Of a stretch of DNA of 21,640 nucleotides, positions 746-19,195 are shown one piece after another (position 1 is the first letter of the stretch; each line of letters starts with the position of its first letter). The notes below the pieces were generated by a model. The model ran no database searches. It saw nothing but the letters and a program-made list of their open reading frames with translations, and was not told the origin of the DNA. This DNA is from a virus: IMG/VR virus record IMGVR_UViG_3300021085_000261, positions 1 to 21,640 of that record. One strand, given 5' to 3'. Made by a program: the position numbers and the translations under genes.

Positions 746-1096
746 ATGGACAAGACTCAAGAACATAAGACAGCAATGCTAAAGGCATTAGAAGCGAATC
801 TAGGTATCGTAACCAAGTCGTGTGATGCTGTGGGTATATCAAGACAGACTCACTACAACTGGATGAAGGATGATCCTGAATACAGAAAGTCAGTTGATGA
901 ACTAGAGAATGTAGCGCTCGACTACGCAGAAGGAAAGCTCCATAGTCAAATAGAGAAGGAGAACCCTACGGCAATCATCTTCTATCTAAAGACCAAAGGC
1001 AAGAGGAGAGGGTACATAGAACGCCAAGAGATAACACACGAGGGTATCAAGACATTCACCATTGAAGAAGTAGATGAGCAAGATCCAAGTCAATAA
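746..1096 (+). CDS. terS: Terminase small subunit
   Basis: The 116-residue protein has an N-terminal helix-turn-helix at about residues 18-50 (LGIVTKSCDAVGISRQTHYN, then WMKDDPEYRKSVDE). This resembles the DNA-recognition domain of phBC6A51-type small terminases. The rest is helical and charged, ending in an acidic tail (TIEEVDEQDPSQ) that could contact the large subunit. The small subunit binds the packaging start site on phage DNA and presents it to the large subunit. Its last 23 bases overlap the large-subunit gene, as expected for a coupled pair. The frame is open back to 704, but ATG 746 is the only normal start. Family is recognised by pattern only. Confidence 0.8.
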   Translation: MDKTQEHKTAMLKALEANLGIVTKSCDAVGISRQTHYNWMKDDPEYRKSVDELENVALDYAEGKLHSQIEKENPTAIIFYLKTKGKRRGYIERQEITHEGIKTFTIEEVDEQDPSQ

Positions 1097-2228
1097 AGTA
1101 TTCGGACACCTCACACGATCAAATAAGAAGATAGTAGTAGAGCAAGGCGGTACTCGTAGCGGTAAGACCTACAACATCATCCTGTGGATTATCTTCTACT
1201 ACTGCACAAACAATACAGGCAAGACTATCACTATTGCTCGTAAGACCTTCCCAGCTGTACGCTCCTCAGTCATGAGGGACTTCCTAGAGATACTCAAAGC
1301 CTACGACCTCTACAAAGAGGAGAACCACAACAAGTCTAACAGCGAATACCAACTCAACGGCAACCTGATAGAGTTCATCTCAATGGATCAACCTCAGAAG
1401 ATTAGAGGGCGCAAGAGAGATCTGGCATTCTTGAATGAGGCGAATGAACTAACGATGGAGGACTGGCAGCAGATAGTGTTTCGTACTAACGGCAGAATCA
1501 TCCTTGACTATAACCCATCAGATACCTACCACTGGATCTACGACAGGGTGATACCGAGAGAGGATGCTGACTTCTATCAAACGACCTACCGAGACAATCC
1601 ATTCCTAGATCCTACTATCATCTTAGAGATAGAGCGACTGCAAGAAACGGATGAACACTACTGGAGAGTCTATGGACTAGGTGAGCGAGGTACTAACAGA
1701 GCGCAAGTGTTCCAGTTCACAACGATACAGCAAGTGCCTAGCACAGCAAAGTTCCTATCCTATGGTCTTGACTTTGGATTCACTAATGATCCATCAGCAC
1801 TCGTTAAATGTTACCAAGAAGGTAACAACCTCTACTTTGAGGAGATGCTCTACTCTACCAACCTAACCAACCAAGACCTCTCAAGGAGGTTCACTGATAT
1901 AGGGATAGGAAGGTACGAGGAGATATACGCAGATAGTGCAGAGCCTAAGAGTATAGAGGAGCTGCATAGAATGGGTTGGACTATCAAGCCAACCACTAAA
2001 GGAGTAGACAGCGTAAACGCTGGTATTGATATGCTGAAGCGTTATAAGATACACATCGTAGGAAGCAACCTGATGAAAGAGATGGAGAACTACCGATGGA
2101 TAGAAGATAAGAATGGTAACTTGCTGAACAAGCCAGAGGACAAGTGGAATCACTTGATTGATGCAGCGAGATATGGAGTATACAACAAACTAAGCAAACC
2201 TAACTATGGTAGATACGCAATCCGTTAA
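1074..2228 (+). CDS. terL: Terminase large subunit (ATPase and nuclease)
   Basis: The 384-residue protein is the DNA packaging motor of the PBSX/Terminase_3 type. Walker A is GGTRSGKT at residues 25-32 and the Walker B-like strand DLAFLNEAN is at 116-124. The C-terminal RNase H-like nuclease shows acidic residues at the expected places: D233 in YGLDFGFTNDP, D287 in YADSAEP and D363 in HLIDAARYG. ATP hydrolysis drives DNA into the prohead through the portal, and the nuclease cuts the concatemer. The length is slightly short for the family but both domains look intact. The start overlaps the small subunit by 23 bases and the end overlaps the next gene by 23 bases. Confidence 0.95.
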   Translation: MSKIQVNKVFGHLTRSNKKIVVEQGGTRSGKTYNIILWIIFYYCTNNTGKTITIARKTFPAVRSSVMRDFLEILKAYDLYKEENHNKSNSEYQLNGNLIEFISMDQPQKIRGRKRDLAFLNEANELTMEDWQQIVFRTNGRIILDYNPSDTYHWIYDRVIPREDADFYQTTYRDNPFLDPTIILEIERLQETDEHYWRVYGLGERGTNRAQVFQFTTIQQVPSTAKFLSYGLDFGFTNDPSALVKCYQEGNNLYFEEMLYSTNLTNQDLSRRFTDIGIGRYEEIYADSAEPKSIEELHRMGWTIKPTTKGVDSVNAGIDMLKRYKIHIVGSNLMKEMENYRWIEDKNGNLLNKPEDKWNHLIDAARYGVYNKLSKPNYGRYAIR

Positions 2229-2862
2229 GATAGAGATACCAGAGGCACTAGCCGACATCTCAGTAGGGAAGTACAAGAAGTTCATCATGATGGCTACGGA
2301 GGAGAATGGAGATGAACAAGCTCTGTATCACTTCTGTGGTCTTACTCCTGATCAACAGGAGAACATGAAGAAGAATGATAGGGACTACATCAGAGAGAAG
2401 ATAGCAGCTGTTCTAGCAGAACGACCAGCACTTGTTCAGACCTTCACATACAGAGGCGTAGAATACGGCTTCCATCCTAAACTAGAGGACATCTCTATGG
2501 GAGAGTATGTAGACCTCGATGAGTTACTCAAAGAGCCTTACAAGAACGCAGAGAAGGTTCTAGGTATTCTGTATAGACCTATCACTACTAAGATGTATGG
2601 TCGGCATCTGGTTGAAACCTACGATCCTGATAAGCACAATGGGCTTGGATTCCAAGACCTATCTGCTGACATCTTTCTAGGTTGTCTGCTTTTTTTTTAT
2701 CGTTTAGAGATCAGCTTACTCATAACTTTCCTACGATCTTCACAGAAGGAGGAGGAGATGAACCAGCCTTTGACAAGCAAACGCAGTTCTCAAGAAAGTG
2801 GGGATGGTATGGCGCAATCAATCAGATTGCTGGAGGTGATCTCTCAAAGTTTGATGAAGTAA
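2206..2862 (+). CDS. Tail-assembly-chaperone-like protein, zero-frame product (218 aa)
   Basis: The ATG at 2206 lies inside the end of terL. The first 164 residues look like one coherent domain, including IEIPEALADISVGKYKKFI near the N-terminus and HPKLEDISMGEYVDLDELL in the middle. After the T run at 2690-2698 this frame gives a less convincing tail (RSSQKEEEMNQPLTSKRSSQ) before stopping at 2862. The plausible continuation lies in the -1 frame (2697-2960). Related Bacteroidetes phage proteins, as I remember them, have an uninterrupted version with a Phe-rich segment at this point. The layout is like lambda G/GT chaperones, where a minority product is extended by frameshifting, but here the tape measure is 5 kb away. 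A sequencing error in the homopolymer would also explain it. Confidence 0.75.
   Translation: MVDTQSVKIEIPEALADISVGKYKKFIMMATEENGDEQALYHFCGLTPDQQENMKKNDRDYIREKIAAVLAERPALVQTFTYRGVEYGFHPKLEDISMGEYVDLDELLKEPYKNAEKVLGILYRPITTKMYGRHLVETYDPDKHNGLGFQDLSADIFLGCLLFFYRLEISLLITFLRSSQKEEEMNQPLTSKRSSQESGDGMAQSIRLLEVISQSLMK
2691..2697 (+). other. Candidate -1 ribosomal slippery site T TTT TTT
   Basis: The run of nine T (2690-2698) contains T_TTT_TTT in the zero frame, with codons at 2692 and 2695 both TTT. Slipping back one base lets both tRNAs re-pair perfectly, and translation continues with TTA TCG TTT from 2697. The joined product would be 251 residues. No strong downstream stem-loop is obvious by eye; a weak AGATC/GATCT pairing is all I see. 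Confidence 0.5.
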
Positions 2863-2960
2863 CAGCACTACCAGCTCGTACCTGTTTGACCTTCCTAGAG
2901 TTCTCTCTTGATAAAGCTGAGGTCGAGAAGGCACATATGAAAAACCAATCAAGGTTCTAG
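2697..2960 (+). CDS. Tail-assembly-chaperone-like protein, -1 frame extension
   Basis: This frame supplies 87 residues if entered by -1 slippage. It begins LSFRDQLTHNFPTIFTEGG and continues with a segment centred on KWGWYGAINQIAGGDLSKFD and then EVTALPARTCLTFLEFSLDK. The WGWY and D.SKFDEVT features look like the conserved C-terminal part of the uninterrupted Bacteroidetes phage homologues, so I read this as real coding sequence. There is no good independent start: the open stretch begins at 2682 with a TTG inside the upstream gene. It ends at TAG 2958-2960, followed by a short gap before the next transcription unit. Confidence 0.7.
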   Translation, partial: LSFRDQLTHNFPTIFTEGGGDEPAFDKQTQFSRKWGWYGAINQIAGGDLSKFDEVTALPARTCLTFLEFSLDKAEVEKAHMKNQSRF

Positions 2961-7769: not shown

Positions 7770-7912
7770 TGAACTTGGGTTTTATAATAGAGCAGCTTTC
7801 AAAAGCTGACCACTTCACAGAGGAGGTACAGATAGCGAAGGGTAGGTACAAACTAATCACGACTTGGAAGGAAGCTAAAGCACATATCAAATGGCTGAGA
7901 AAAGGGAAATAG
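7769..7912 (+). CDS. Small hypothetical protein between tail-tip gene and tape measure (47 aa)
   Basis: ATG 7769 overlaps the previous stop (TAATG) and the stop TAG is at 7910-7912, 22 bases into the tape-measure gene. The product starts MNLGFIIEQLSKADHFTEEV and has a basic helical end (KEAKAHIKWLRKGK). It is the only frame that fills the gap between its two neighbours and is coupled to both, which supports it. It holds the motif copy at 7777 and an inverted repeat at 7793-7808. Function unknown. Confidence 0.6.
   Translation: MNLGFIIEQLSKADHFTEEVQIAKGRYKLITTWKEAKAHIKWLRKGK
7777..7791 (+). promoter_or_regulatory. Boundary motif copy C, GGGTTTTATAATAGA, before the tape measure
   Basis: Six bases after the stop of the 682-residue gene, and inside the start of the 47-residue frame. 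It shares GGGTTTTATAAT with copy D. It could direct transcription of the tape measure and head genes. Because it also encodes the residues GFII, chance is less easily excluded than at the intergenic copies. Confidence 0.3.
7793..7808. repeat. Perfect inverted repeat CAGCTTT-CA-AAAGCTG
   Basis: Seven base pairs with a two-base spacer, just downstream of motif copy C and within the 47-residue gene. As RNA the loop is too tight for a full hairpin, but as DNA it could be an operator. No T run follows, so it is not a terminator. Confidence 0.35.
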
Positions 7913-9459
7913 AAATAAATGTCAAAACGGATAAGGCTGTCAATAATGTAGACAACCTAACAGATGCCGTAGAGGACACTGCGAAAGCAGCCGACAAAGC
8001 GGAAGGCTCATTTGATGGTTTAGTATCAGGTATTGACAAGATGACTGGTGGTCTAGTTTCTGGATTTAAGAATGCGGTAACTGGTATTAAGAACGGCGTG
8101 AAGGCGATGAAAACCTTGAAGGTTGCTATTGCAGCCACTGGTATTGGATTGCTAGTTATTGCTATCGGTTCTCTAGTCTCTTACTTTACCAATACCCAAA
8201 AGGGAGCAGATAAGTTGAATGTAGCGTTCAAAGCGATAGGTGCTACTATTGATGTATTGGTTGATCGTGTATCAACATTTGGTGAGGGGTTGTTTAAGAT
8301 ACTATCAGGTGATTTCTCTGAAGGTGTAGATATCCTGAAGGGATCATTTAAGGGATTGGGTGAGGAGATACGCAATGAAGCATCGGCAGCAGCCGAACTA
8401 GAACGCCAGTTCCAAGCATTACAGGATCGCGAGATTTCAATGATAGAAACTCGTGCAGAGCGTAGAGCATCTATTGAAGCCTTACGACTTGTAGCGGCAG
8501 ATGAAACTAGAGATCTACAAGCTAGAGCCAACGCATTAAAGGAGGCGATGGAACTAGAGAAGCAACTTGCAGATGAGGAGGTAGCGATAGCAGCAGAGAG
8601 GGCTAGAATCTTACAAGAGCAGAATGCACTAGGTGAGTCTACGAGAGATGACTTACAAGCAGAGGCAGAAGCTAATGCTCGTGTGATTGAATTACAAGCA
8701 CAGCGTGATACTCGTTTGAAGGAATTGGTTGCTACATACAACAGCTTGAACAAGCAAGTAAGAGATGCAGCTCAAGCCATTCGTGATGAGGAGTCAGCCA
8801 TCCTAGAGCTAAACACTAAGGCGGTAGATAGTAAGAAGTTCGCAGTAGATAACGAACTGAAGATGCACAAGATGCTACGCACAGGCATGGCTCAGATGGA
8901 TCAGCAGTATGCTTCAACAAGAGAGCAGATAGAAGCTGACTCAGCAAAGAAAACTAGATCACAGAAGATGGCAGAGCTAGACATAGTTGCTGGAGCATTG
9001 AATGGTCTAGGTCAGTTGGCTGGTGAGAATGCGGCAGCTGGTAAAGCAATAAGCGCAGCAGAGGCTATCATCAACACCTACACAGGTGCTACTAAAGCCC
9101 TAGCACAAGGTGGTATCTTTGGTGCGGTAGCAGCAGCTGGTGTAGTAGCTAGTGGTATCGCTAGTGTTCGTGCAATCTACAAAACTGATATCCCAACGCC
9201 ATCACCTTCTAATGTAAGCGTAGGGGGTAGACAACTAGGCGGCGGCGGAGGTGGTTCTAGACCAGCATCACCTACACCTAACATCCCTAGACCTCAACTC
9301 GCTACTGGTATCGGGTTTGATACATCAGGTGCTAACTTAGGCAATCAGATAGCAGAGAGTCTGCAAGGCTCATCAATGAGAGCGTATGTAGTGAACCAAG
9401 ACATACAGAGCGCAGAGAAGCTAGATCGTAAAATAGAAGAAACAGCAACATTCGGATAG
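7891..9459 (+). CDS. Tail tape measure protein
   Basis: The 522-residue protein shows tape-measure features in order. There is a charged helical N-terminus (VDNLTDAVEDTAKAADKAEG), a hydrophobic segment at 76-97 (LKVAIAATGIGLLVIAIGSL) and a long Ala/Glu/Arg/Gln-rich coiled coil at about 155-340. A second hydrophobic stretch lies near 407-427 (GAVAAAGVVASGIA), followed by a Gly-rich and Pro-rich linker (GGGGGGSRPASPTPN). Tape measures fix tail length and may enter the host envelope at infection. At the usual ~1.5 angstrom per residue this length implies a tail of roughly 80 nm. The start overlaps the 47-residue gene and the end is one base from the protease gene. Confidence 0.85.
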   Translation: MAEKREIEINVKTDKAVNNVDNLTDAVEDTAKAADKAEGSFDGLVSGIDKMTGGLVSGFKNAVTGIKNGVKAMKTLKVAIAATGIGLLVIAIGSLVSYFTNTQKGADKLNVAFKAIGATIDVLVDRVSTFGEGLFKILSGDFSEGVDILKGSFKGLGEEIRNEASAAAELERQFQALQDREISMIETRAERRASIEALRLVAADETRDLQARANALKEAMELEKQLADEEVAIAAERARILQEQNALGESTRDDLQAEAEANARVIELQAQRDTRLKELVATYNSLNKQVRDAAQAIRDEESAILELNTKAVDSKKFAVDNELKMHKMLRTGMAQMDQQYASTREQIEADSAKKTRSQKMAELDIVAGALNGLGQLAGENAAAGKAISAAEAIINTYTGATKALAQGGIFGAVAAAGVVASGIASVRAIYKTDIPTPSPSNVSVGGRQLGGGGGGSRPASPTPNIPRPQLATGIGFDTSGANLGNQIAESLQGSSMRAYVVNQDIQSAEKLDRKIEETATFG

Positions 9460-9460
9460 T

Positions 9461-10417
9461 ATGAGATTTTTTGAATTAGTATTAGATGAGGAGAAGCTAT
9501 TGCATGGCATTGATGCTATCAGCATCGTAGAGCATCCAGCGATAGAGGAGGACTTCATCACAATGAGCAAGGAACACAAGTTCGAGTTCAAAGAGGTAGA
9601 CAACGAGAAGCGCATCCTGATGGGTGCAGCTATGATTCCAGAGAAGCCTATCTACCGAGTAGATGGTGGCGAAGAATACTATGTGTTCTTTACTAAGGAA
9701 ACGATACGCAGAGCATCGGAGTTGTACTTGATGAATGGTAAGCAAGGCAACGCTACCCTAGAGCATGAGAAGAAGATAGAAGGTCTATCGTTAGTTGAGA
9801 GCTGGATCATAGAGGACAGCGACAAGGACAAGTCTAGAGCCTACGGCTTAGAGTACCCAGTAGGTACATGGATGGTATCTATGAAGGTTAATAACGAGGA
9901 CATCTGGGAGAACTATGTCCGTGAGGGTATCGTAAAGGGATTCTCTATTGAGGGCTGGTTCATGCAGCGTGAGTCCGCTATTGAGGTCAATACGGAACTA
10001 TCAGCAATCGAATCAGCAGAAGCAGAACACCTCCTCTCCCTATATCTTCTGGGAATAACTAAAGGCGTTCTCAAGAACGACAAGAGATACAAGAATGGAA
10101 AGAAGCTGGAGATGGAGTCATTCAAAGACTACCCTGATTCAGTATCTAACAATGCAAAGAAAGGAATCGAACTCAACGAGAAGCAAGGCAACAAGTGCGC
10201 TACTCAAGTCGGTAAGATCCGAGCGCAGCAGCTCTCACAAAAGCAACCACTCTCAGTAGAAACCATCAAGCGTATGTACAGCTACTTAAGTAGAGCGCAA
10301 GAGTATTACGATGAAGGAGACACCACATCCTGTGGTTACATATCGTATTTGCTATGGGGTGGTCTAAGTGCTAAGAGATGGGCAGAGAGCAAATTGAAGG
10401 AGCTGGATCAGATATAG
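9461..10417 (+). CDS. Capsid maturation protease (XkdF-like) fused to a C-terminal domain
   Basis: The N-terminal ~170 residues match the prohead protease pattern of the XkdF/HK97 kind, including DAISIVEHPAIEEDFI. The likely catalytic His is H102 (ATLEHEKKIEG) and the likely Ser is S162 in VKGFSIEGWF. After a linker, a second domain at about 219-316 contains FKDYPDSVSNNAKKGIELNE, CATQVGKIRAQQL, SVETIKRMYSYLSR, a Cys and an LLWGG turn before SAKRWAESKL. This module occurs fused to phage head proteins as I recall; its role is unknown. The protease cleaves scaffold and capsid during head maturation. It precedes scaffold and capsid genes, as expected. Confidence 0.8.
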   Translation: MRFFELVLDEEKLLHGIDAISIVEHPAIEEDFITMSKEHKFEFKEVDNEKRILMGAAMIPEKPIYRVDGGEEYYVFFTKETIRRASELYLMNGKQGNATLEHEKKIEGLSLVESWIIEDSDKDKSRAYGLEYPVGTWMVSMKVNNEDIWENYVREGIVKGFSIEGWFMQRESAIEVNTELSAIESAEAEHLLSLYLLGITKGVLKNDKRYKNGKKLEMESFKDYPDSVSNNAKKGIELNEKQGNKCATQVGKIRAQQLSQKQPLSVETIKRMYSYLSRAQEYYDEGDTTSCGYISYLLWGGLSAKRWAESKLKELDQI

Positions 10418-10470
10418 AAAGTAACCCAAAATCAAAATAAATAGTTGTTTAATTAACAAAGTTCTAGAAA

Positions 10471-11058
10471 ATGAATCTAAACGAAGTGTTCAAGAAAATT
10501 GAAATGGCTCTCACTCCAAGTGAAGAAGCTGCTCCTGTTGAGGAGGTAAAGGTAGAGATGGCGAATATGCGCCTCGCTAATGGTGTCGTGATTGAGGCTG
10601 AGTCTTTCGAGGCTGGTCAGAATGTATTCCTCGTTGGGGAAGATGATGAGAAGGTAGCTGCTCCAGTAGGAGAGCATGAACTAGAAGATGGTCGTGTATT
10701 GGTTATCGTAGAAGAAGGTGTCATCGCTGAGATCAAAGAAGTAGAAGAAGCACCAGCTGAAGAAGAAGTTGAGGTTGAACAAGCTGCTGAGGAAGAAGAA
10801 ATGGGCTATGTTACCAAAGAGGAGTTTGAAAGCGCAGTATCTGAGATCAAAGAGATGATCGCTAACATGATGCCTCAAGAGGAAGAAATGAGTGCTACTG
10901 AAGAAGTAGTAGAAGAACAAGTGGAGATGAGTGTTGATGAAGCACCAGCGGCTAAGAAAGTAGCAGTTGCTCCAGTAGAGAAAAAAGTAGACATGAATCG
11001 CTATGCTAAGAAAGCACCGCAAGATACATTGTCTCGTGTTTTAAGTAAGTTATCATAA
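10471..11058 (+). CDS. Scaffold-like protein
   Basis: The 195-residue product is very acidic. It has a small folded section (MRLANGVVIEAESFEAGQNV and LEDGRVLVIVEEGVIAEIKE), then Glu/Val/Ala-rich repeats (EEAPAEEEVEVEQAAEEEE), a coiled-coil candidate (VTKEEFESAVSEIKEMIANM) and a basic C-terminus (NRYAKKAPQDTLSRVLSKL). The acidic coiled-coil body plus basic end is typical of capsid scaffolds. The basic tail would contact the shell. It lies between the protease and the capsid gene. The leader is A-rich. The GAA/GTA-rich DNA opens a shadow frame on the opposite strand, which I do not consider a gene. Confidence 0.7.
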   Translation: MNLNEVFKKIEMALTPSEEAAPVEEVKVEMANMRLANGVVIEAESFEAGQNVFLVGEDDEKVAAPVGEHELEDGRVLVIVEEGVIAEIKEVEEAPAEEEVEVEQAAEEEEMGYVTKEEFESAVSEIKEMIANMMPQEEEMSATEEVVEEQVEMSVDEAPAAKKVAVAPVEKKVDMNRYAKKAPQDTLSRVLSKLS

Positions 11059-11076
11059 ATTAAATAAAGAAGAAAA

Positions 11077-12003
11077 ATGGCTACAACCACTTCAGTAACT
11101 ACAACCTACGCTGGTGAAGCGGCAGGGCGTTTTGTAAGCGCAGCTCTTTTGAGCGCAGACACTATCGATGGCGGTGGTGTTACAATCAAACCAAATGTAA
11201 AGTTCAAAGAAGTCCTAAAGACTATGAACTTAGATGCAATCACTAAGGATGCAACTTGTGATTTCTCTGACACTTCAACATTGACTCTCGCAGAGAGCAT
11301 ACTTGAGGTCAAGCAACTACAAGTAAATCTGGAATTGTGTAAGTCCGATTTTGAGGACGACTGGCTTGCTGCTGAGATGGGCTTCTCTGCTCATGACAAC
11401 CTTCCAGCTACATTCTCTGATTACTTGATCGGATATGTTGCTTCTAAAGTCGCTGCAAAGAACGAATCAAACATCTGGCAAGGTGTTGATGCTAACGCTG
11501 GTGAGTTCGATGGTTTCACTACATTGGCTGCTGCTAACGCAGATGTGATTGATGTAACTGGTACGACTATCACTGCTGGTAATGTAATTGATGAGTTAGG
11601 TAAAGTAGTAGATGAAATTCCAGCTGCATTGTACGGCAAAGAGGATCTATACATCTATGTATCACAGCACATCGCTCGTTCTTATGTTCGTGCATTAGGT
11701 GGCTTCGGAGCTTCAGGCTTGGGTGCTAATGGTGTTGCTGCACAAGGTACTACTTGGTACAACGGAGGCGATTTAGCTTTTGATGGTGTTAAGTTGTTCG
11801 TAGCTTCAGGTCTACCGACAAACGATATGATTGCTGCTCAGAAGTCTAACTTGTACTTCGGTACTTCTATCCTTGCTGACTGGCAAGAGGTGAAGTTGTT
11901 AGATATGGCTGATTTAGATGGTAGCAAAAATGTTCGTGTGATCATGCGCATGGCTGCTGGTTGTCAGATCGGTATCGGTGCTGATGTAGTTTACTACACT
12001 TAA
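11077..12003 (+). CDS. Major capsid protein
   Basis: The 308-residue protein follows the protease and scaffold genes and precedes a strong terminator, the usual place and size for an HK97-fold shell protein. It starts MATTTSVTTTYAGEAAGRFV, and includes an N-terminal arm with GGVTIKPNVKFKEVLKTMNL, a helix (FSDYLIGYVASKVAAKNESN), a central acidic helix (NVIDELGKVVDEIPAALYGK) and a C-terminal strand region (KNVRVIMRMAAGCQIGIGAD). Its family is inferred by pattern and context. The leader AATAAAGAAGAAAA is A-rich with no Shine-Dalgarno site, consistent with a highly expressed Bacteroidetes-type gene. Confidence 0.8.
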   Translation: MATTTSVTTTYAGEAAGRFVSAALLSADTIDGGGVTIKPNVKFKEVLKTMNLDAITKDATCDFSDTSTLTLAESILEVKQLQVNLELCKSDFEDDWLAAEMGFSAHDNLPATFSDYLIGYVASKVAAKNESNIWQGVDANAGEFDGFTTLAAANADVIDVTGTTITAGNVIDELGKVVDEIPAALYGKEDLYIYVSQHIARSYVRALGGFGASGLGANGVAAQGTTWYNGGDLAFDGVKLFVASGLPTNDMIAAQKSNLYFGTSILADWQEVKLLDMADLDGSKNVRVIMRMAAGCQIGIGADVVYYT

Positions 12004-12023
12004 GAAGTAGTTATTTAATCATT

Positions 12024-12060
12024 AAAGGGGTAGGTGGGTTCAATCTGCCTACCCTTTTTT
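12024..12060 (+). terminator. Intrinsic terminator after the capsid gene
   Basis: GGGTAGG (12028-12034) pairs with CCTACCC (12048-12054) around a 13-base loop that can be partly closed by wobble pairs. A T run follows at 12055-12060 and flanking A bases can extend the stem. It separates the capsid gene from the tail-tube-like gene, so it may limit transcription of the latter, because I see no separate promoter in the 12 bases before its ATG. Confidence 0.8.
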
Positions 12061-12072
12061 AATTCATAGAAT

Positions 12073-12603
12073 ATGGCGTGTACATTAACAAAAGGAAGAA
12101 ACGAGCCTTGTAAAGATGTAGTAGGTGGTATCACCTCTGTGTACTTTGCAGACTTCGGAACATTAGGTGCGATTGGCTACGATGGCACTGCTGGTGAGAC
12201 TGATGTGATTGAAACATTTGGAGGAACTCCAGATTGGTTTGAGTTCAAACTAAAAGGAAACTCTAGCTTCGAACAAGCTGTTACCTCATCTCGTGAGAAT
12301 GGTACAACCTTCTACGAGCAGACATTAAACTTGACCTTCAAGAAGATGTCTAAGCAGACTCACAACGAATTGAAGTTACTTGCTTATGCAAGACCTCATG
12401 TGATCGTAGAGGACAACAACGGCAACAAGTTCTTGATGGGCTTTGAGTATGGTGCTGAGGTAAGCGGTGGCTCTATCGCAACAGGTGCAGCAATGGGTGA
12501 TCTATCAGGTTACACTTTGACCTTCACTGGTCAAGAGAAGATTCCAGCGAATTTCGTAGATGCTACGATTACAGCTGATGCTTCTAACATCTCTGACATC
12601 TAA
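12073..12603 (+). CDS. Major tail (tube) protein-like
   Basis: The 176-residue product has features of a tail tube subunit: a beta-rich core with DWFEFKLKGNSSFEQAVTSS, a NGTTFYEQTLNLTFKKMSKQ segment, then a strand-turn region (PHVIVEDNNGNKFLMGFEYG) and a GYTLTFTGQEKIPANF end. Small size, beta content and high-expression context between two terminators fit a tube protein. It could instead be a capsid decoration protein, given its place beside the capsid gene. The ATG at 12073 follows the A/T leader AATTCATAGAAT. Confidence 0.6.
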   Translation: MACTLTKGRNEPCKDVVGGITSVYFADFGTLGAIGYDGTAGETDVIETFGGTPDWFEFKLKGNSSFEQAVTSSRENGTTFYEQTLNLTFKKMSKQTHNELKLLAYARPHVIVEDNNGNKFLMGFEYGAEVSGGSIATGAAMGDLSGYTLTFTGQEKIPANFVDATITADASNISDI

Positions 12604-12623
12604 TAGTCTAAACTACTAGAATC

Positions 12624-12660
12624 AAAAAACCCCTTCCAATTACGGAGGGGGTTCTTTTTT
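12624..12660 (+). terminator. Intrinsic terminator after the tube-like gene
   Basis: AACCCCTTCC (12628-12637) pairs with GGAGGGGGTT (12644-12653), ten pairs with one wobble, around the loop AATTAC. Six A precede it and six T follow (12655-12660), so it could work in both directions. It isolates the capsid/tube unit from the portal unit. Confidence 0.85.
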
Positions 12661-12679
12661 GGTAGGAATTGCACCTACC
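12661..12679. repeat. Small hairpin GGTAGG-AATTGCA-CCTACC
   Basis: Six perfect pairs with a seven-base loop, directly after the terminator. The stem sequence repeats the GGTAGG/CCTACC stem of the terminator at 12024-12060. No T run follows. It may be a second structural stop, an operator or RNA protection. On the other strand it looks somewhat like a tRNA T arm, but no other tRNA parts are present. Confidence 0.4.
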
Positions 12680-12721
12680 TAAGAGAGCAATGAATGGCAA
12701 ATATACCACATCTTTCCTTTT

Positions 12722-12736
12722 GGGTTTTATAATTAG
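12722..12736 (+). promoter_or_regulatory. Boundary motif copy D, GGGTTTTATAATTAG, directly before an ATG
   Basis: The copy lies in a 133-base gap after a terminator and ends against the ATG at 12737. The transcript of the portal group must start here or further up this gap, and no Bacteroidetes TAnnTTTG box is seen in it. A promoter here would give a nearly leaderless message. Confidence 0.4.
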
Positions 12737-13093
12737 ATGATAATTGTAGAAGAAAATACAACGGCTACGATCAAGATGTACCTCCGAGACTTTACTACGG
12801 AGTCATTTGAGATTGAGATAATCTCTGAGGATCAGCGTAAGGAGGTAGTAGACACTACCCTTAGTGGAACATGGAACGACTTTAGAAAAGTGCTTACCTT
12901 TACCTATGATGTATCTGCTCTAGTAGCAGAGAACTTCTATGTCGTTAAGATATGGGAGGCTAGTAAGGTGAAGCTACTTTCTCAGGATCGTATGTATATC
13001 CTACCTTCAGGATCGGATGTTGCTACATACCAACCGAAACTAGCAGCAACTGAGAAAACAATGGACAACGAATTTAAGATCTATGGCGAATAA
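12737..13093 (+). CDS. Hypothetical beta-rich structural protein, 118 aa
   Basis: The ATG at 12737 follows motif copy D. The product begins MIIVEENTTATIKMYLRDFT and is rich in alternating hydrophobic and polar residues, as in a small beta sandwich (EIEIISEDQRKEVVDTTLSG, then WNDFRKVLTFTYDVSALVAE). No signal peptide or membrane segment is seen. It overlaps the portal gene by 11 bases, so it is probably co-translated with it and may be a virion component. No family recognised with confidence. Confidence 0.65.
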   Translation: MIIVEENTTATIKMYLRDFTTESFEIEIISEDQRKEVVDTTLSGTWNDFRKVLTFTYDVSALVAENFYVVKIWEASKVKLLSQDRMYILPSGSDVATYQPKLAATEKTMDNEFKIYGE

Positions 13094-14864
13094 CATAAAC
13101 TTCGTGCAGCTGTCAAGCTACACCTCTCCAACGATTACAGAGAACGCTCGTAGCGGATGGGTAGAGTATGGCGAGGACAATAACTACTTCCAGTACCTGA
13201 TTGACCGATACAACGGATCACCTACTAACAACGCAGTAGTGTCTGGTATCATTGACATGATATTCGGTAAGGGTATAGATGCAACAGATTCAGCACAAAA
13301 TCCAGAGGGCTACTTGCAACTGCGTAAGCTGATTAAGGATAGCGAACTGAAGAAGGTCATCAACGACTACTACTTGCTAGGGAACGGAGCGTTCCAAGTC
13401 ATCTACAACAGAGACAAGAGCAAGATCGTTGAGGTGTACCATATGCCAGTAGAATGCCTACGCTCTGAGAAGTGTAACGCTGAAGGCGATGTTGAGGGTT
13501 ACTACTATGCTTATGATTGGGGTGCAGTACGCTCTAAGAAAGGCGTAGAACGCATTCCAGCCTTTGGTTATGGCGAAGCATCTGAGAAGGTAGAGATACT
13601 CTACTTTAGACCTTATAGATCAGGAAGCTATTACTACTCACCAGTAGACTATCAAGGAGCGTTACCATACGCAGAGCTAGAGGGTGAGGTTGCAAACTAC
13701 CACATCAACAACATCAAGAACGGACTAGCTCCTTCTATGATTGTGAACTTTAACAATGGTGTACCTCCAGAGGAGGAGCGTGATATCATTGAATCACAGA
13801 TTAAGCAGAAGTGGAGTGGTTCATCGAACTCAGGTAAGTTCATCCTAGCGTTTAATGATGACTCAAATAGCGCAGCGAGTATTGAGCCTGTGCAACTATC
13901 CGATGCTCACAACCAGTACGAGTTCTTATCTAGAGAATCACAGCAGAAGGTACTAGTAGGTCATAGAATCACTAGCCCTATGCTGTTCGGTGTTAAAGAC
14001 CAAACAGGTCTAGGCAATAATGCTGATGAGATAAAGACAGCATTCCAGCTGTTTGATAACAGCGTTATCCAACCAAAGCAAGACCAAGTCATTGCAGCAC
14101 TTGATCAGATACTAGGATTCAACAACATTGCACTCAACCTATACTTTAAGACTCTTACTCCTATCGAGTTTACAGACTTAGAGAACGCTAAGACTACTGA
14201 GGTAATAGAGGAGGAAACAGGAGTCAAGATGAGCAAGTGTTCTATGGATATGCCAGAGGAGTACGATACTATGGTCGATGACCTTATCGCTTTAGGTGAG
14301 GATGTAGATGAAGATCAATGGGAACTAGTAGATGAGCGTGATGTAGACTACGATCAGGAAGATGCACTAGACTCTACGCTGAAGTTTGCCTCTACTGGTA
14401 CAGCAAGACCTAACGCTAACAGCGAACAAGATGGTGAGAATGTAGAGGGTACTCAGTTCCTAGTTCGTTACAGATACGATGGAAGCAAATCACCACAGCG
14501 TGAGTTCTGCCGTAAGATGATGACAGCGAACAAAGTCTATCGCAAAGAGGACATCATGACTATGGACAACCAAGCGGTGAACGCTGGGTTCGGAGTCAAT
14601 GGTGCAAGTACCTACTCTATCTGGTTGTATAAGGGTGGTGCTAGATGCAAACACAAGTGGGTTCGTAGAACCTACATGAGTAAGGGAGGGGTAAGACCTG
14701 ATGTTAAGAGTCCGAATGCTGAAACAATCAGCACAACGAAAGCAAGACAGAAGGGCTTTAGACCAGAGGCTAATGACTCAAAGGTAGCTGTAACTCCTAG
14801 TAACATGAAGAACAAGGGGTTCGTGAACCCTCCATCTATTAAGGACATTCAAGGAGGTATATAA
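13083..14864 (+). CDS. Portal protein with an extra C-terminal domain
   Basis: The 593-residue protein begins MANNINFVQLSSYTSPTITE and has portal features: GWVEYGEDNNYFQYLIDRYN, NNAVVSGIIDMIFGKG, a DYYLLGNGAFQVIYNRD region and a long central segment with QKVLVGHRITSPMLFGVKDQ. Portals form the 12-fold ring through which DNA enters. After an acidic linker (about 395-440) a further domain carries FLVRYRYDG, FCRKMMTANKVYRKEDIMTM, AVNAGFGVNG and a SIWLYKGGARCKHKWVRRTY block with Cys and His. I remember this second module on Bacteroidetes phage portals, with unknown function. Its stop shares one base with the next start (ATAATGG). Confidence 0.85.
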   Translation: MANNINFVQLSSYTSPTITENARSGWVEYGEDNNYFQYLIDRYNGSPTNNAVVSGIIDMIFGKGIDATDSAQNPEGYLQLRKLIKDSELKKVINDYYLLGNGAFQVIYNRDKSKIVEVYHMPVECLRSEKCNAEGDVEGYYYAYDWGAVRSKKGVERIPAFGYGEASEKVEILYFRPYRSGSYYYSPVDYQGALPYAELEGEVANYHINNIKNGLAPSMIVNFNNGVPPEEERDIIESQIKQKWSGSSNSGKFILAFNDDSNSAASIEPVQLSDAHNQYEFLSRESQQKVLVGHRITSPMLFGVKDQTGLGNNADEIKTAFQLFDNSVIQPKQDQVIAALDQILGFNNIALNLYFKTLTPIEFTDLENAKTTEVIEEETGVKMSKCSMDMPEEYDTMVDDLIALGEDVDEDQWELVDERDVDYDQEDALDSTLKFASTGTARPNANSEQDGENVEGTQFLVRYRYDGSKSPQREFCRKMMTANKVYRKEDIMTMDNQAVNAGFGVNGASTYSIWLYKGGARCKHKWVRRTYMSKGGVRPDVKSPNAETISTTKARQKGFRPEANDSKVAVTPSNMKNKGFVNPPSIKDIQGGI

Positions 14865-15444: not shown

Positions 15445-15730
15445 CGGCTACGGAGCAATATACGGAAGCACTTGGTGGGGTTCACAGAACGACATCAACT
15501 TCAACGAGATTAGCTACTACATCTATGCGGTAGATGAGTTAAAGACACGAGCATTAGCTGATGGTGCTATTATGGAAGGCTTTGGTTGTGCGAGTGAGTC
15601 TATCCGTACAATGGGTGAGAGAGATTCAGCAGAGGCGATGTTTGATGCTTACAGCGTTAGGGTAGTTGCCGATAGCGGAGCTACGGAGGCAAGAATCTGT
15701 ACTATTAAAGAAATAAGTTTACTACGATGA
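15437..15730 (+). CDS. Small tail-associated hypothetical protein, 97 aa
   Basis: The product begins MGNGYGAIYGSTWWGSQNDI, with Gly and aromatic residues, followed by NEISYYIYAVDELKTRALAD and a C-terminal part with SVRVVADSGATEARICTIKE. The Gly/Trp-rich start is often seen in small phage tail or fibre-adjacent proteins of Bacteroidetes phages. No catalytic motif is visible. The stop overlaps the first fibre gene (ATGA), suggesting it is made together with the fibres, perhaps as an adaptor or base for them. The codon style is still that of the main genome. Confidence 0.6.
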   Translation: MGNGYGAIYGSTWWGSQNDINFNEISYYIYAVDELKTRALADGAIMEGFGCASESIRTMGERDSAEAMFDAYSVRVVADSGATEARICTIKEISLLR

Positions 15731-17457
15731 GTATATACAAGTCAAGCAGTTTAGCAATGCTTCCTACTGCGTATAAGGATGGGAAGTTGTATAGTGTACG
15801 CCCTACTGATGGTAGTGGGGACTTCACATTTAGTAGGGGTTCAAATCTTGCTGCTACAAGAATTTCAGCTTCGCAGTTAATAGAGAAGGGTAGAGAGAAT
15901 CTCTTGCTGCAATCAAATACCTTTGATACTACTTGGACTACGACAAGAGCAACTTTTGTTGGTGGTCAAGCAGGGTATGATGGCTCAAACAACGCTTGGG
16001 CAATGGTTGATAACACCACTAATAGCACCCACTTATCTGCTCAATCATTATCACTCGGAGCAAGTGTTGCTACTTTTAGTATTTATGCAAAGGCTAATGA
16101 TGTTGATTTCCTTGCGGTACGCTTTGAAGGTTCATCAGTAGATTACGCTTACTTTAATTTAGCTTCTGGAACATTAGGCACTATTGACTCGGATTATATT
16201 GAGGCAAGAATTACAGATGTAGGTTCTGGTTGGTATCGTTGTGAAGCAACGAGAGTATTAGCGGCAAGTGGAAATCAAGTGGTTTTATTAGCTGCTCAAG
16301 CCAACAATGACCCAACATACGCAGGTGCAGGGACTACGGCACTATACATACAAGACTCACAAGTAGAATTAGGTCTCGTAGCTACTGAATACATTGAGAC
16401 AGGAGCATCTACTGCACAAAGTGGTATATTAGAGGACTTACCGAGATTAGATTATAGTGGTGGTGCTTCGTGTCCTGCTCTTTTACTTGAGCCTCAAAGA
16501 ACAAATAAGGCTAATTATAGTGAGGGATATGTAGGGTATCAAACATCCACAAGCGGTACAGGTGTAGCCCCTGTTGTAAGCCAAAACGCTGCCGTATCTC
16601 CTGATGGTACACAAAATGCTTTTAGAGTAGACTTAAATAGAGGCACGGGTAATACAGGTTCGGATTGGAGTTGGATATATCAAAGTAATATTGGATATGT
16701 TGGTTCTAATGTGATTAGCGTGTATCTTAAAGCAGCCACAAGCAACGACATCGGAAAGGAAATTGCCATTCGTGCAGCAGGTGGTTCAAATGCTGTAGTA
16801 TTAACCGCTGATTGGAAAAGACACGAAATAATTAAAACATCAACCGCAACATCCGATTTAGGATTGTATTCAAGAGGTGGAGAAAATGCAGACAATGCGG
16901 TTTCTTGTTATGTGTATGGATGGCAAGTAGAAAACAATTCAAGTTACCCTACAAGTTACATACCTACTATGGGTTCTGCGGTTACGAGGTCTCAAGATGT
17001 TTGTAGTGGAGCAGGAGATGCTGATACCTTTAACGATAGTGAGGGTACTTTGTTTGCAGAGATATTTATTGAAGAAGAAATAGATTCTAATATAAATATA
17101 AGCGTTTCTAAAGGTACTCACGCACAAGATTTGACCAAGTTTATTTATTTGCCATCTACTAATGAATTTAGGTTTGAAATATTTGGAGGAGCCGTTGGAA
17201 CCTCAATAACTATTAACAATTTATCTTTAGGTGTATATAATAAAATTGCGGGTTCTTATGATGGGTCAGATGTAAAATTATACATAAATGGTGTTCAAAT
17301 AGGTACTGCATCAACAAATCAACTACCTACTGGTTTGAATCAATTTAATTTTGATAGAGCGGATGGTACTGCACCTTTTAAGGGGAAGGCAAAAAAAGTT
17401 TTATACTTCCCAACTGCATTAACTGATAGCGAGTGTATCGCATTAACAACTATATAA
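15727..17457 (+). CDS. Receptor-binding / tail fibre protein 1 (carbohydrate-binding modules plus LamG-like domain)
   Basis: The 576-residue product has four parts. Residues 1-55 form a head that is shared with the next gene (GDFTFSRGSNLAATR). Residues 58-225 form a carbohydrate-binding-like sandwich with NLLLQSNTFDTTW, FSIYAKANDVDF, GSGWYRCEATR and ALYIQDSQVELGL. After a linker (PRLDYSGGASCPALLLEPQR), residues 260-421 repeat the fold and end YIPTMGSAVTR. Residues 430-576 resemble a concanavalin A/LamG domain (GSYDGSDVKLYINGVQIGTA). Such modules bind sugars on cell surfaces. TTA leucine and AT-rich codons differ from the neighbours, and GATC and CTAG are absent. No enzymatic residues seen. 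Confidence 0.75.
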   Translation: MSIYKSSSLAMLPTAYKDGKLYSVRPTDGSGDFTFSRGSNLAATRISASQLIEKGRENLLLQSNTFDTTWTTTRATFVGGQAGYDGSNNAWAMVDNTTNSTHLSAQSLSLGASVATFSIYAKANDVDFLAVRFEGSSVDYAYFNLASGTLGTIDSDYIEARITDVGSGWYRCEATRVLAASGNQVVLLAAQANNDPTYAGAGTTALYIQDSQVELGLVATEYIETGASTAQSGILEDLPRLDYSGGASCPALLLEPQRTNKANYSEGYVGYQTSTSGTGVAPVVSQNAAVSPDGTQNAFRVDLNRGTGNTGSDWSWIYQSNIGYVGSNVISVYLKAATSNDIGKEIAIRAAGGSNAVVLTADWKRHEIIKTSTATSDLGLYSRGGENADNAVSCYVYGWQVENNSSYPTSYIPTMGSAVTRSQDVCSGAGDADTFNDSEGTLFAEIFIEEEIDSNINISVSKGTHAQDLTKFIYLPSTNEFRFEIFGGAVGTSITINNLSLGVYNKIAGSYDGSDVKLYINGVQIGTASTNQLPTGLNQFNFDRADGTAPFKGKAKKVLYFPTALTDSECIALTTI

Positions 17458-17458
17458 G

Positions 17459-19195
17459 ATGAGTATATACGACAAAAGCAGTTTGGTCTTAATACCAAGC
17501 GGTACAAAGGCAGGTAAGGTCTACTCGCAGAAACCTGTAAGCGGTGATGGTGATTTTACTTTCACTCGTTCATCTGCTGCTACGAGAGTTAATGCAGATG
17601 GTAATATAGAGAAGGAGACAAGTAACTTGCTGACCTACTCTAATACTTTTAGTTCTTGGACACCTGCTAACGCTGTATTAACAGATGGTCAATCTGGTTA
17701 TGATGGAACAAGTGATGCTTGGTTATTAGACAAAGCTGCATCAGCAGGGAATATACAATTAAATGTTTCTTCAAGTGGTGTTAATACTTTTAGTTATTAT
17801 GCTAAAGCAGGGAGTGTTGATTGGACAAGGTTATTGATTTTAGGAACTACTAACGCATCAACATACATTAACTTAACGAATGGTGCAATAGGTGTAGGCG
17901 GTGGTGGCTTTATTGATGCTACGGCAACAGATGTAGGTAGTGGTTGGTGGAGAGTTTCTATTACTCATTCTACTGCAATTACTCAAGTTCGTATTTATCC
18001 TGCACCTGCCGACAACGATACAAGTGGTTCAAGCGGTAACATCTACATCCAAGATGCCCAACTAAATCAAGGGCTGATAGCGCAAGAGGTGATTACTACA
18101 ACTACATCTGCCGTATATGGAGGTATTACAGACAATACTCCAAGATTGGACTATACGGATAGTTCGTGTCCTGCACTATTGTTAGAGCCACAACGGACTA
18201 ATGTTGTTACGCAGTCGGAGTATTACGATACAGGCAATGGATACTTCAATTCATTTGCATTACACGACATCGTAACAAATACTACTGCAACAAAATCTCC
18301 AACAGGTGATTATTCTGCTTCAAAGATTATACCTGACACATCAAATAGTAGCAACCATAACATATATGGAAGTAATGTTACCTCTGGTACAAAGTATGCG
18401 GTTTCAATCTTCGCTAAAGCAGCAGAGTATAATTATTTACTGATTCGTGGTCTTGGTCTTGGCGGAAGTGGCGGAGCAAGATTTAATATATCAACAGGAG
18501 TTGTTGAAGGTGTTGCAGGATATGATTCAGCAACAATAGAGGATTACGGAAACGGATGGTATAGATGTATTGCAGTCGGTACTGCTACCTCTACAACAGG
18601 TGCGTACTATCACGCTTCTCCAACTGCTGCATTCACATCATTTCAAGGAAACAACTCCGATGGTATTTACATTTACGGAGCGCAAATAGAAGCAGGAAGT
18701 TACGCAACATCCTACATACCTACCTATGGGAGTAGTGTAACTCGTGTGGGTGAAACAAACTCCGTAACAGGTGTGAGTGATATTATTGGGCAAGAACAAG
18801 GCACTTTCTTTGTTGAATGGGAAAATATAGGTGATACATCAAGACCTTATTTAGCATTGAGCGCAGGAGGTTCTACGGCTAACCGAGTGTTGATTTATGA
18901 AAGTAGCGGTGTAAATGCTCAAATAAAAAGCGGAGGCTCTGTGGTATTTCAATCTACTACTGCATCTGTAAGCGGAACAATAAAAGCAGCAGTCGCATAC
19001 AACACAAATGATTTTGTATTCTATGTAAATGGAACGCAATATGGCACGGATTCAAGTGGCGCTACATTTAGCGGAACAACTTTAAGTGAAATAGAATTTG
19101 ACCACGCAGGGTTGATTGGTGCATCAATAAAACAATCACTTGTATTCAAGACACGACTAACAAACTCTGAATTAGCAGATTTAACTACACTATAA
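17459..19195 (+). CDS. Receptor-binding / tail fibre protein 2, paralogue of the previous gene
   Basis: The 578-residue product has the same parts as its neighbour. The head is shared (GDFTFTRSSAATRV). The first module covers about 56-213 (NLLTYSNTFSSW, FSYYAKAGSVDW, GSGWWRVSIT, IYIQDAQLNQGL), the linker is PRLDYTDSSCPALLLEPQRT, and the second module covers about 250-429 (GNGWYRCIAVGT, YIYGAQIEAG, YIPTYGSSVTR). A LamG-like end at about 435-578 includes FVFYVNGTQYG. The heads and linkers are most alike while the second modules and ends have diverged, so receptor preference probably differs. Both genes start ATGAGTATATAC. The gap between the two genes is one base. The duplication is old at DNA level. 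Confidence 0.75.
   Translation: MSIYDKSSLVLIPSGTKAGKVYSQKPVSGDGDFTFTRSSAATRVNADGNIEKETSNLLTYSNTFSSWTPANAVLTDGQSGYDGTSDAWLLDKAASAGNIQLNVSSSGVNTFSYYAKAGSVDWTRLLILGTTNASTYINLTNGAIGVGGGGFIDATATDVGSGWWRVSITHSTAITQVRIYPAPADNDTSGSSGNIYIQDAQLNQGLIAQEVITTTTSAVYGGITDNTPRLDYTDSSCPALLLEPQRTNVVTQSEYYDTGNGYFNSFALHDIVTNTTATKSPTGDYSASKIIPDTSNSSNHNIYGSNVTSGTKYAVSIFAKAAEYNYLLIRGLGLGGSGGARFNISTGVVEGVAGYDSATIEDYGNGWYRCIAVGTATSTTGAYYHASPTAAFTSFQGNNSDGIYIYGAQIEAGSYATSYIPTYGSSVTRVGETNSVTGVSDIIGQEQGTFFVEWENIGDTSRPYLALSAGGSTANRVLIYESSGVNAQIKSGGSVVFQSTTASVSGTIKAAVAYNTNDFVFYVNGTQYGTDSSGATFSGTTLSEIEFDHAGLIGASIKQSLVFKTRLTNSELADLTTL

Follow-up and report, generated by a model that had tools for sequence, protein, structure and literature searches.

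The closest described systems are genes from which two products are made by slippage. In phage lambda, the G and GT products come from one gene and have a common N-terminal part, and a −1 shift at GGGAAAG adds a second tail. Five zero-frame codons are left after the slip, and the genes are located between the tail tube and the tape measure. The E/E+E' gene of phage P2 is also shifted by −1, at a run of T (T_TTT_TTG) with 6 zero-frame codons past the slip, and is located between the tube gene FII and the tape measure gene T. The tail chaperones of actinophages (SEA-PHAGES) are recoded as well, and the annotated ones have an average of 26 nt from the slip to the in-frame stop (PMC10885494). In the known tail chaperone shifts, the unshifted protein ends a few codons past the slip, and its tail is taken as filler. 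More than one product also arises by transcriptional slippage at homopolymers of about nine A or T in Thermus dnaX and in the mxiE and spa genes of Shigella (PMC5009743).

The gene described here lies in a viral window of 21,640 nt (IMG/VR record IMGVR_UViG_3300021085_000261), on the plus strand. Its open reading frame starts with the ATG at 2206 and reads the nine T at 2690–2698 as CTT TTT TTT TAT. In this phase the run contains the −1 heptamer T_TTT_TTT (2691–2697), which fits the in-frame pattern X_XXY_YYZ; the phase was kept across the clusters of relatives. Codons 1–164 (2206–2697) form the N-terminal domain (N-part) of both predicted products. The zero-frame tail at 2698–2862 (54 codons and TAA) completes a product of 218 aa that ends at 2862. 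After a −1 shift, the tail at 2697–2960 (87 codons and a stop), which bears a KWGWY motif, gives 164 + 87 = 251 aa, ending at 2960. The +1 frame is closed by a TAG at 2705–2707, two codons past the run, and an early +1 stop was kept in nearly all relatives. The first-pass annotation had described a gene at 2206–2960 split at nine T with a perfect −1 heptamer; its coordinates and both product lengths agreed exactly with ours. Translation also confirmed its placement of WGWY and LSKFDEVT in the −1 frame.

The gene resembles lambda G/GT in its two predicted products with a common N-part and in the −1 shift that adds a tail; in both cases the phage is tailed and encodes a tape measure protein. It differs in the slip site (nine T), in the selected 54-codon zero-frame tail and in its position beside terL. 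It shares with P2 the use of a T run for the −1 shift; no sequence similarity to the P2 gene was found. The distance from slip to stop is about 165 nt, as opposed to the average of 26 nt in actinophages. A stretch of about nine identical bases, A or T, is also the slip site in dnaX, mxiE and spa, but those are cellular genes, whereas here a phage gene with predicted slippage has two dual-coded tails. Direct homologues with T9, a −1 KWGWY tail and a position beside terL occur in two cultured phages, Nonlabens (Inhavirus) P12024L (genes 40–41) and P12024S (genes 38–39), where they are annotated as two separate genes and the zero-frame tail has only 25 codons. No published account of the arrangement was found in the open-access literature. 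What is new is that both outcomes of a −1 recoding of known type carry selected, overlapping tails.

Conservation of the T run

The run by itself is weak evidence, since T9 occurs twice in the window, both strands counted, compared with 0.40 times expected from shuffling. Comparison of relatives was more informative. Nine or ten T with the C-terminal part in the −1 frame were found in ~320 related loci from viruses, which fall into 90 clusters (80% identity or less). An initial pair of scans returned 80 and 29 loci, respectively. All 80 relatives of the N-part, at 66–99% identity, had TTTTTTTTT in the same codon positions; wherever the contig reached, they also had the −1 tail. More distant loci from alignment-based searches all had nine or ten T with the C-part in −1, as did 78 of 79 loci that were more distant still. 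Over 244 tabulated loci (243 relatives and the window, with a few contigs entered twice), the run was T9 in 207 and T10 in 37. No relative examined had fewer than nine T. All 90 of 90 clusters had a run of at least nine T at the slip site, whereas 689 kb of sequence from these loci contained just 16 such runs outside it. As every relative examined keeps nine or ten T at the junction, the run is more than a chance feature. T9 and the −1 frame were still found where similarity had fallen to about 27–33% identity. The −1 tails that diverged most were too variable for their profile to be used in scanning.

The relatives include a Flavobacteriaceae MAG and a Winogradskyella MAG, both with T9 or T10 and the C-part in −1. 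Based on these matches, the host is probably a marine member of the Flavobacteriaceae. The homologues in P12024L and P12024S adjoin terL and carry T9. A tblastn search of the phage collection with the window's own N-part gave no match, and the Nonlabens phages were reached from more distant members of the family. The −1 KWGWY tail of P12024L was checked and is present, annotated as a separate gene. Genes 40 and 41 of this phage (L255, 6001–6695; JQ823123.1, 23946–24640) thus appear to be one slippage gene annotated as two.

Altogether, the conserved T9, the −1 frame and the dual coding are established by comparison of relatives, and programmed −1 recoding at T9 is almost certain on this basis. 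That both proteins are made, and in what ratio, we infer from the sequences.

Two loci had one tail interrupted. In L264 (near 4001), this was the −1 tail, with the zero-frame tail intact; in L339 (near 3995), it was the zero-frame tail, with the −1 tail intact.

The overlapping zero-frame tail

The two tails overlap by 54 codons in the window and by 38–88 codons in nearly all clusters. The zero-frame tail was 51–55 codons long in most of the window's clade. In other groups it was mostly 54–56 or 38–40 codons long, and in a third set 62–101.

We checked whether such lengths are expected by holding the −1 protein fixed and resampling its codons synonymously by local usage. Over 72 clusters (80% identity or less), the zero frame was open for a mean of 55.0 codons compared with 14.8 expected, and it was open for at least 38 codons in 98.6% compared with 17.8% expected. 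The same test gave 8.9 compared with 9.1 expected for control windows of other genes (n=1374), and 7.8 compared with 7.4 for the N-part. A further 18 clusters had a mean of 76.7 codons compared with 21.4 expected, with P<0.05 in 17 of the 18. The exception was P12024L, whose zero-frame tail of 25 codons is not longer than expected; hence, a long zero-frame tail is not universal.

In both clades and in every identity bin, fourfold sites differed less often within the overlap than within the N-part or past the zero-frame stop. In the window's clade at 80–90% identity, the mismatch was 0.19 in the overlap, 0.38 in the N-part and 0.39 past the zero stop. Along the gene, the mismatch fell at the slip and rose again near the zero stop. 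Single columns showed which residues are kept. In one column, −1 codons for Leu, Ile, Val or Phe ended in T in 44 of 44 clusters (8.8 expected), which keeps a zero-frame Leu. In another, −1 Leu was written as CTC in 36 of 44 (3.3 expected), which keeps a zero-frame Ser. The zero-frame stop was at one column in 44 of 44 clusters, and the third-base bias dropped in the columns just past it. Because the clusters are related by descent, these counts do not represent independent events, but the control genes have the same history of descent. The window's clade showed the same third-base pattern. A BLOSUM test for conservative zero-frame replacements at differing sites gave no signal; this is a weak test, as few sites are free to change.

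The zero-frame tail is thus very probably under selection, and the comparison indicates two alternative C-termini in overlapping frames, both of them selected. The first-pass annotation had considered the zero-frame tail unrelated to the −1 tail. This is correct for the sequences, but the zero-frame tail is itself conserved and selected, and a second coding sequence had been missed. Neutral read-through was considered for the zero-frame tail and ruled out by its openness and by the fixation of third bases. With two selected frames over 38–88 codons, the short form is likely to have a function in its own right.

Origin of the split and mode of slippage

Two alternatives do without recoding or without a second protein tail. 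The first-pass annotation had named the loss of a T during sequencing as the main alternative. On this reading, taken here together with an assembly error or a fixed one-base deletion, the true gene would have ten T and one continuous frame. The annotation had proposed comparing homologues for T runs, and this comparison decides the matter. The −1 arrangement is present in ~320 loci from independent metagenome assemblies and in both cultured phage genomes, and an error could not explain selection on the zero-frame tail. One further locus (L267, near 967) carries ten T and has its N- and C-parts in a single frame, while its close neighbours have T9; both an assembly error and a real fixed slip are possible there. 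In addition, three BFVD proteins of 258–267 aa (A0A516L611, A0A516L5A8 and A0A6J5N0W0) match the model of the N-domain as well as that of the −1 tail, so that continuous-frame relatives may exist. The conservation nevertheless rules out a lost T as the source of the split, and we give this explanation practically no weight. The other alternative is that the constraint in the overlap comes from an RNA element. In its favour, synonymous sites are most constrained over the first 20 codons past the slip and, in the window's clade, over the 10 codons before it. However, one particular frame stays free of stops for 38–88 codons, third bases track the zero-frame residue class and relax past the zero stop, and downstream folds were overall no better than shuffles. 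An RNA element in place of a second protein tail is therefore very improbable. In the ten codons before the slip (2668–2697), silent sites are constrained in the window's clade (0.21 compared with about 0.6). This constraint is absent from the largest other group, and a clade-specific upstream signal is possible.

The proteins would be the same if the ribosome stepped back one base at T9 or if RNA polymerase added one U. In transcriptional slippage, the polymerase would slip on the nine T and produce mRNAs of differing run length (9 U, 10 U and others), which are translated normally. U10 mRNA would yield the −1 tail, and U8 mRNA the N-domain truncated after two codons. In bacteria, nine A or T in a row make RNA polymerase slip with high efficiency, and E. 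coli ribosomes shift only weakly on U_UUU_UUU (PMC5009743). All loci had a homopolymer of 9 or 10 T, although a ribosomal heptamer needs only seven, and such runs are rare elsewhere in the same loci. A T to C change at the last heptamer base would be silent in both frames in 74 clusters and was seen in none of them. TTC makes up 27% of Phe codons, so this doubly silent C is avoided. The sole cluster with a C (TTC) at this place has ten T before it, and two clusters with a single T before the heptamer carry two T after it. A search for downstream hairpins found none that was stable or consistent, and the 18 stretches of 91 nt examined folded overall no better than shuffles. On the other hand, the tail chaperone shifts that have been characterised take place on the ribosome (PMC5009743), and the T on either side are in part dictated by the hydrophobic residues that both frames encode. 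In ribosomal frameshifting, two Phe tRNAs would slip in tandem on T_TTT_TTT, in the manner of lambda G/GT and P2 E/E+E'. This mechanism is consistent with the perfect in-frame heptamer, with a −1 direction like that of most tail chaperones, with a heptamer phase that is retained when the run moves and with the precedent of T_TTT_TTG in P2. It does not account for a run longer than needed in every relative, for the doubly silent C that is never used or for the lack of an obvious stimulatory structure. We give transcriptional slippage about an even chance and ribosomal frameshifting a chance somewhat below even; between polymerase and ribosome, we lean slightly towards the polymerase. The first-pass annotation had taken the slippery heptamer for programmed frameshifting. 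Its −1 recoding is strongly supported, and its ribosomal part is matched at least as well by transcriptional slippage on T9.

Predicted products and gene neighbourhood

All 72 family members examined matched phrog_32199, a family annotated without function. The AF2 model of the N-domain had a pLDDT mostly above 90. In the zero-frame tail, a helix at residues 154–185 continued from the N-domain, and a second helix followed at 200–217 with lower confidence. The −1 tail was modelled as a helical domain (pLDDT 78). No useful PDB relatives were found by sequence or fold. The VIA-align rows matched the helical tail only and were uninformative on the N-domain.

A role in tail assembly, which the first-pass annotation had also suggested, is plausible. 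The architecture is of the chaperone type, with a short and an extended product predicted from a common N-part and with T9 and the −1 frame conserved in ~320 loci. The tape measure gene lies in the same structural block. Weak matches were found to phrog_166 tail protein (10 members, best 3e-5), to Phage_TAC_7 (one family member, E=0.03) and, with Foldseek in BFVD, to annotated tail assembly chaperones, among them A0A8S5L849 (probability 0.87 and E 0.8, over 54 columns at rmsd 2.3). Against this, hhalign gave no match to lambda G or P2 E, and the gene adjoins terL instead of lying between the major tail protein and tape measure genes. From the architecture, the structural block and the weak matches, we consider a tail assembly chaperone role reasonably probable. 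By analogy, the gene likely works like G/GT and is a candidate member of that class, with codons 1–164 likely the 'G'-like part.

The explanation that we favour with good confidence for the locus as a whole is one recoded gene whose 218-aa and 251-aa proteins both have real, selected tails and would act as a G/GT-like chaperone pair. At T9, a fraction of expression would slip by −1, so that one gene would give two proteins that share the 164-aa N-domain and differ in their C-terminal tails. As in G/GT, the short form would coat the tape measure protein in many copies, and the long form would recruit tail tube subunits. The conserved zero-frame tail suggests that the short form does more than lambda gpG. 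More tentatively, a large clade of flavobacterial phages may generate the two forms of its chaperone through slippage of RNA polymerase at T9, rather than by ribosomal frameshifting, and may have overprinted a full, selected alternative C-terminal domain on the unshifted protein; we rate this combined reading as possible at less than even chances.

The position beside terL and 5 kb from the tape measure, pointed out as unusual in the first reading, is real. The gene for the terminase large subunit (1074–2228, plus strand; Terminase_3 and RNaseH-like C domain, PF04466 E=5.7e-26 and PF17288 E=1.4e-14) overlaps the start of the slippage gene, and TerL was upstream of it in 83 of 89 testable clusters. 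The tape measure gene (7891–9459, plus strand; phrog_3336 tail length tape measure protein, E=1.5e-11) follows about 5 kb and several genes downstream. The order at 7891–14864 is unusual, with the tape measure, an XkdF-like protease, the likely major capsid protein and then the portal; terL is about 11 kb upstream of the portal. Two adjacent tail-like proteins (15727–17457 and 17459–19195) have the motifs ALLLEPQRTN and SYIPT.GS.VTR in common and look like a tandem duplication.
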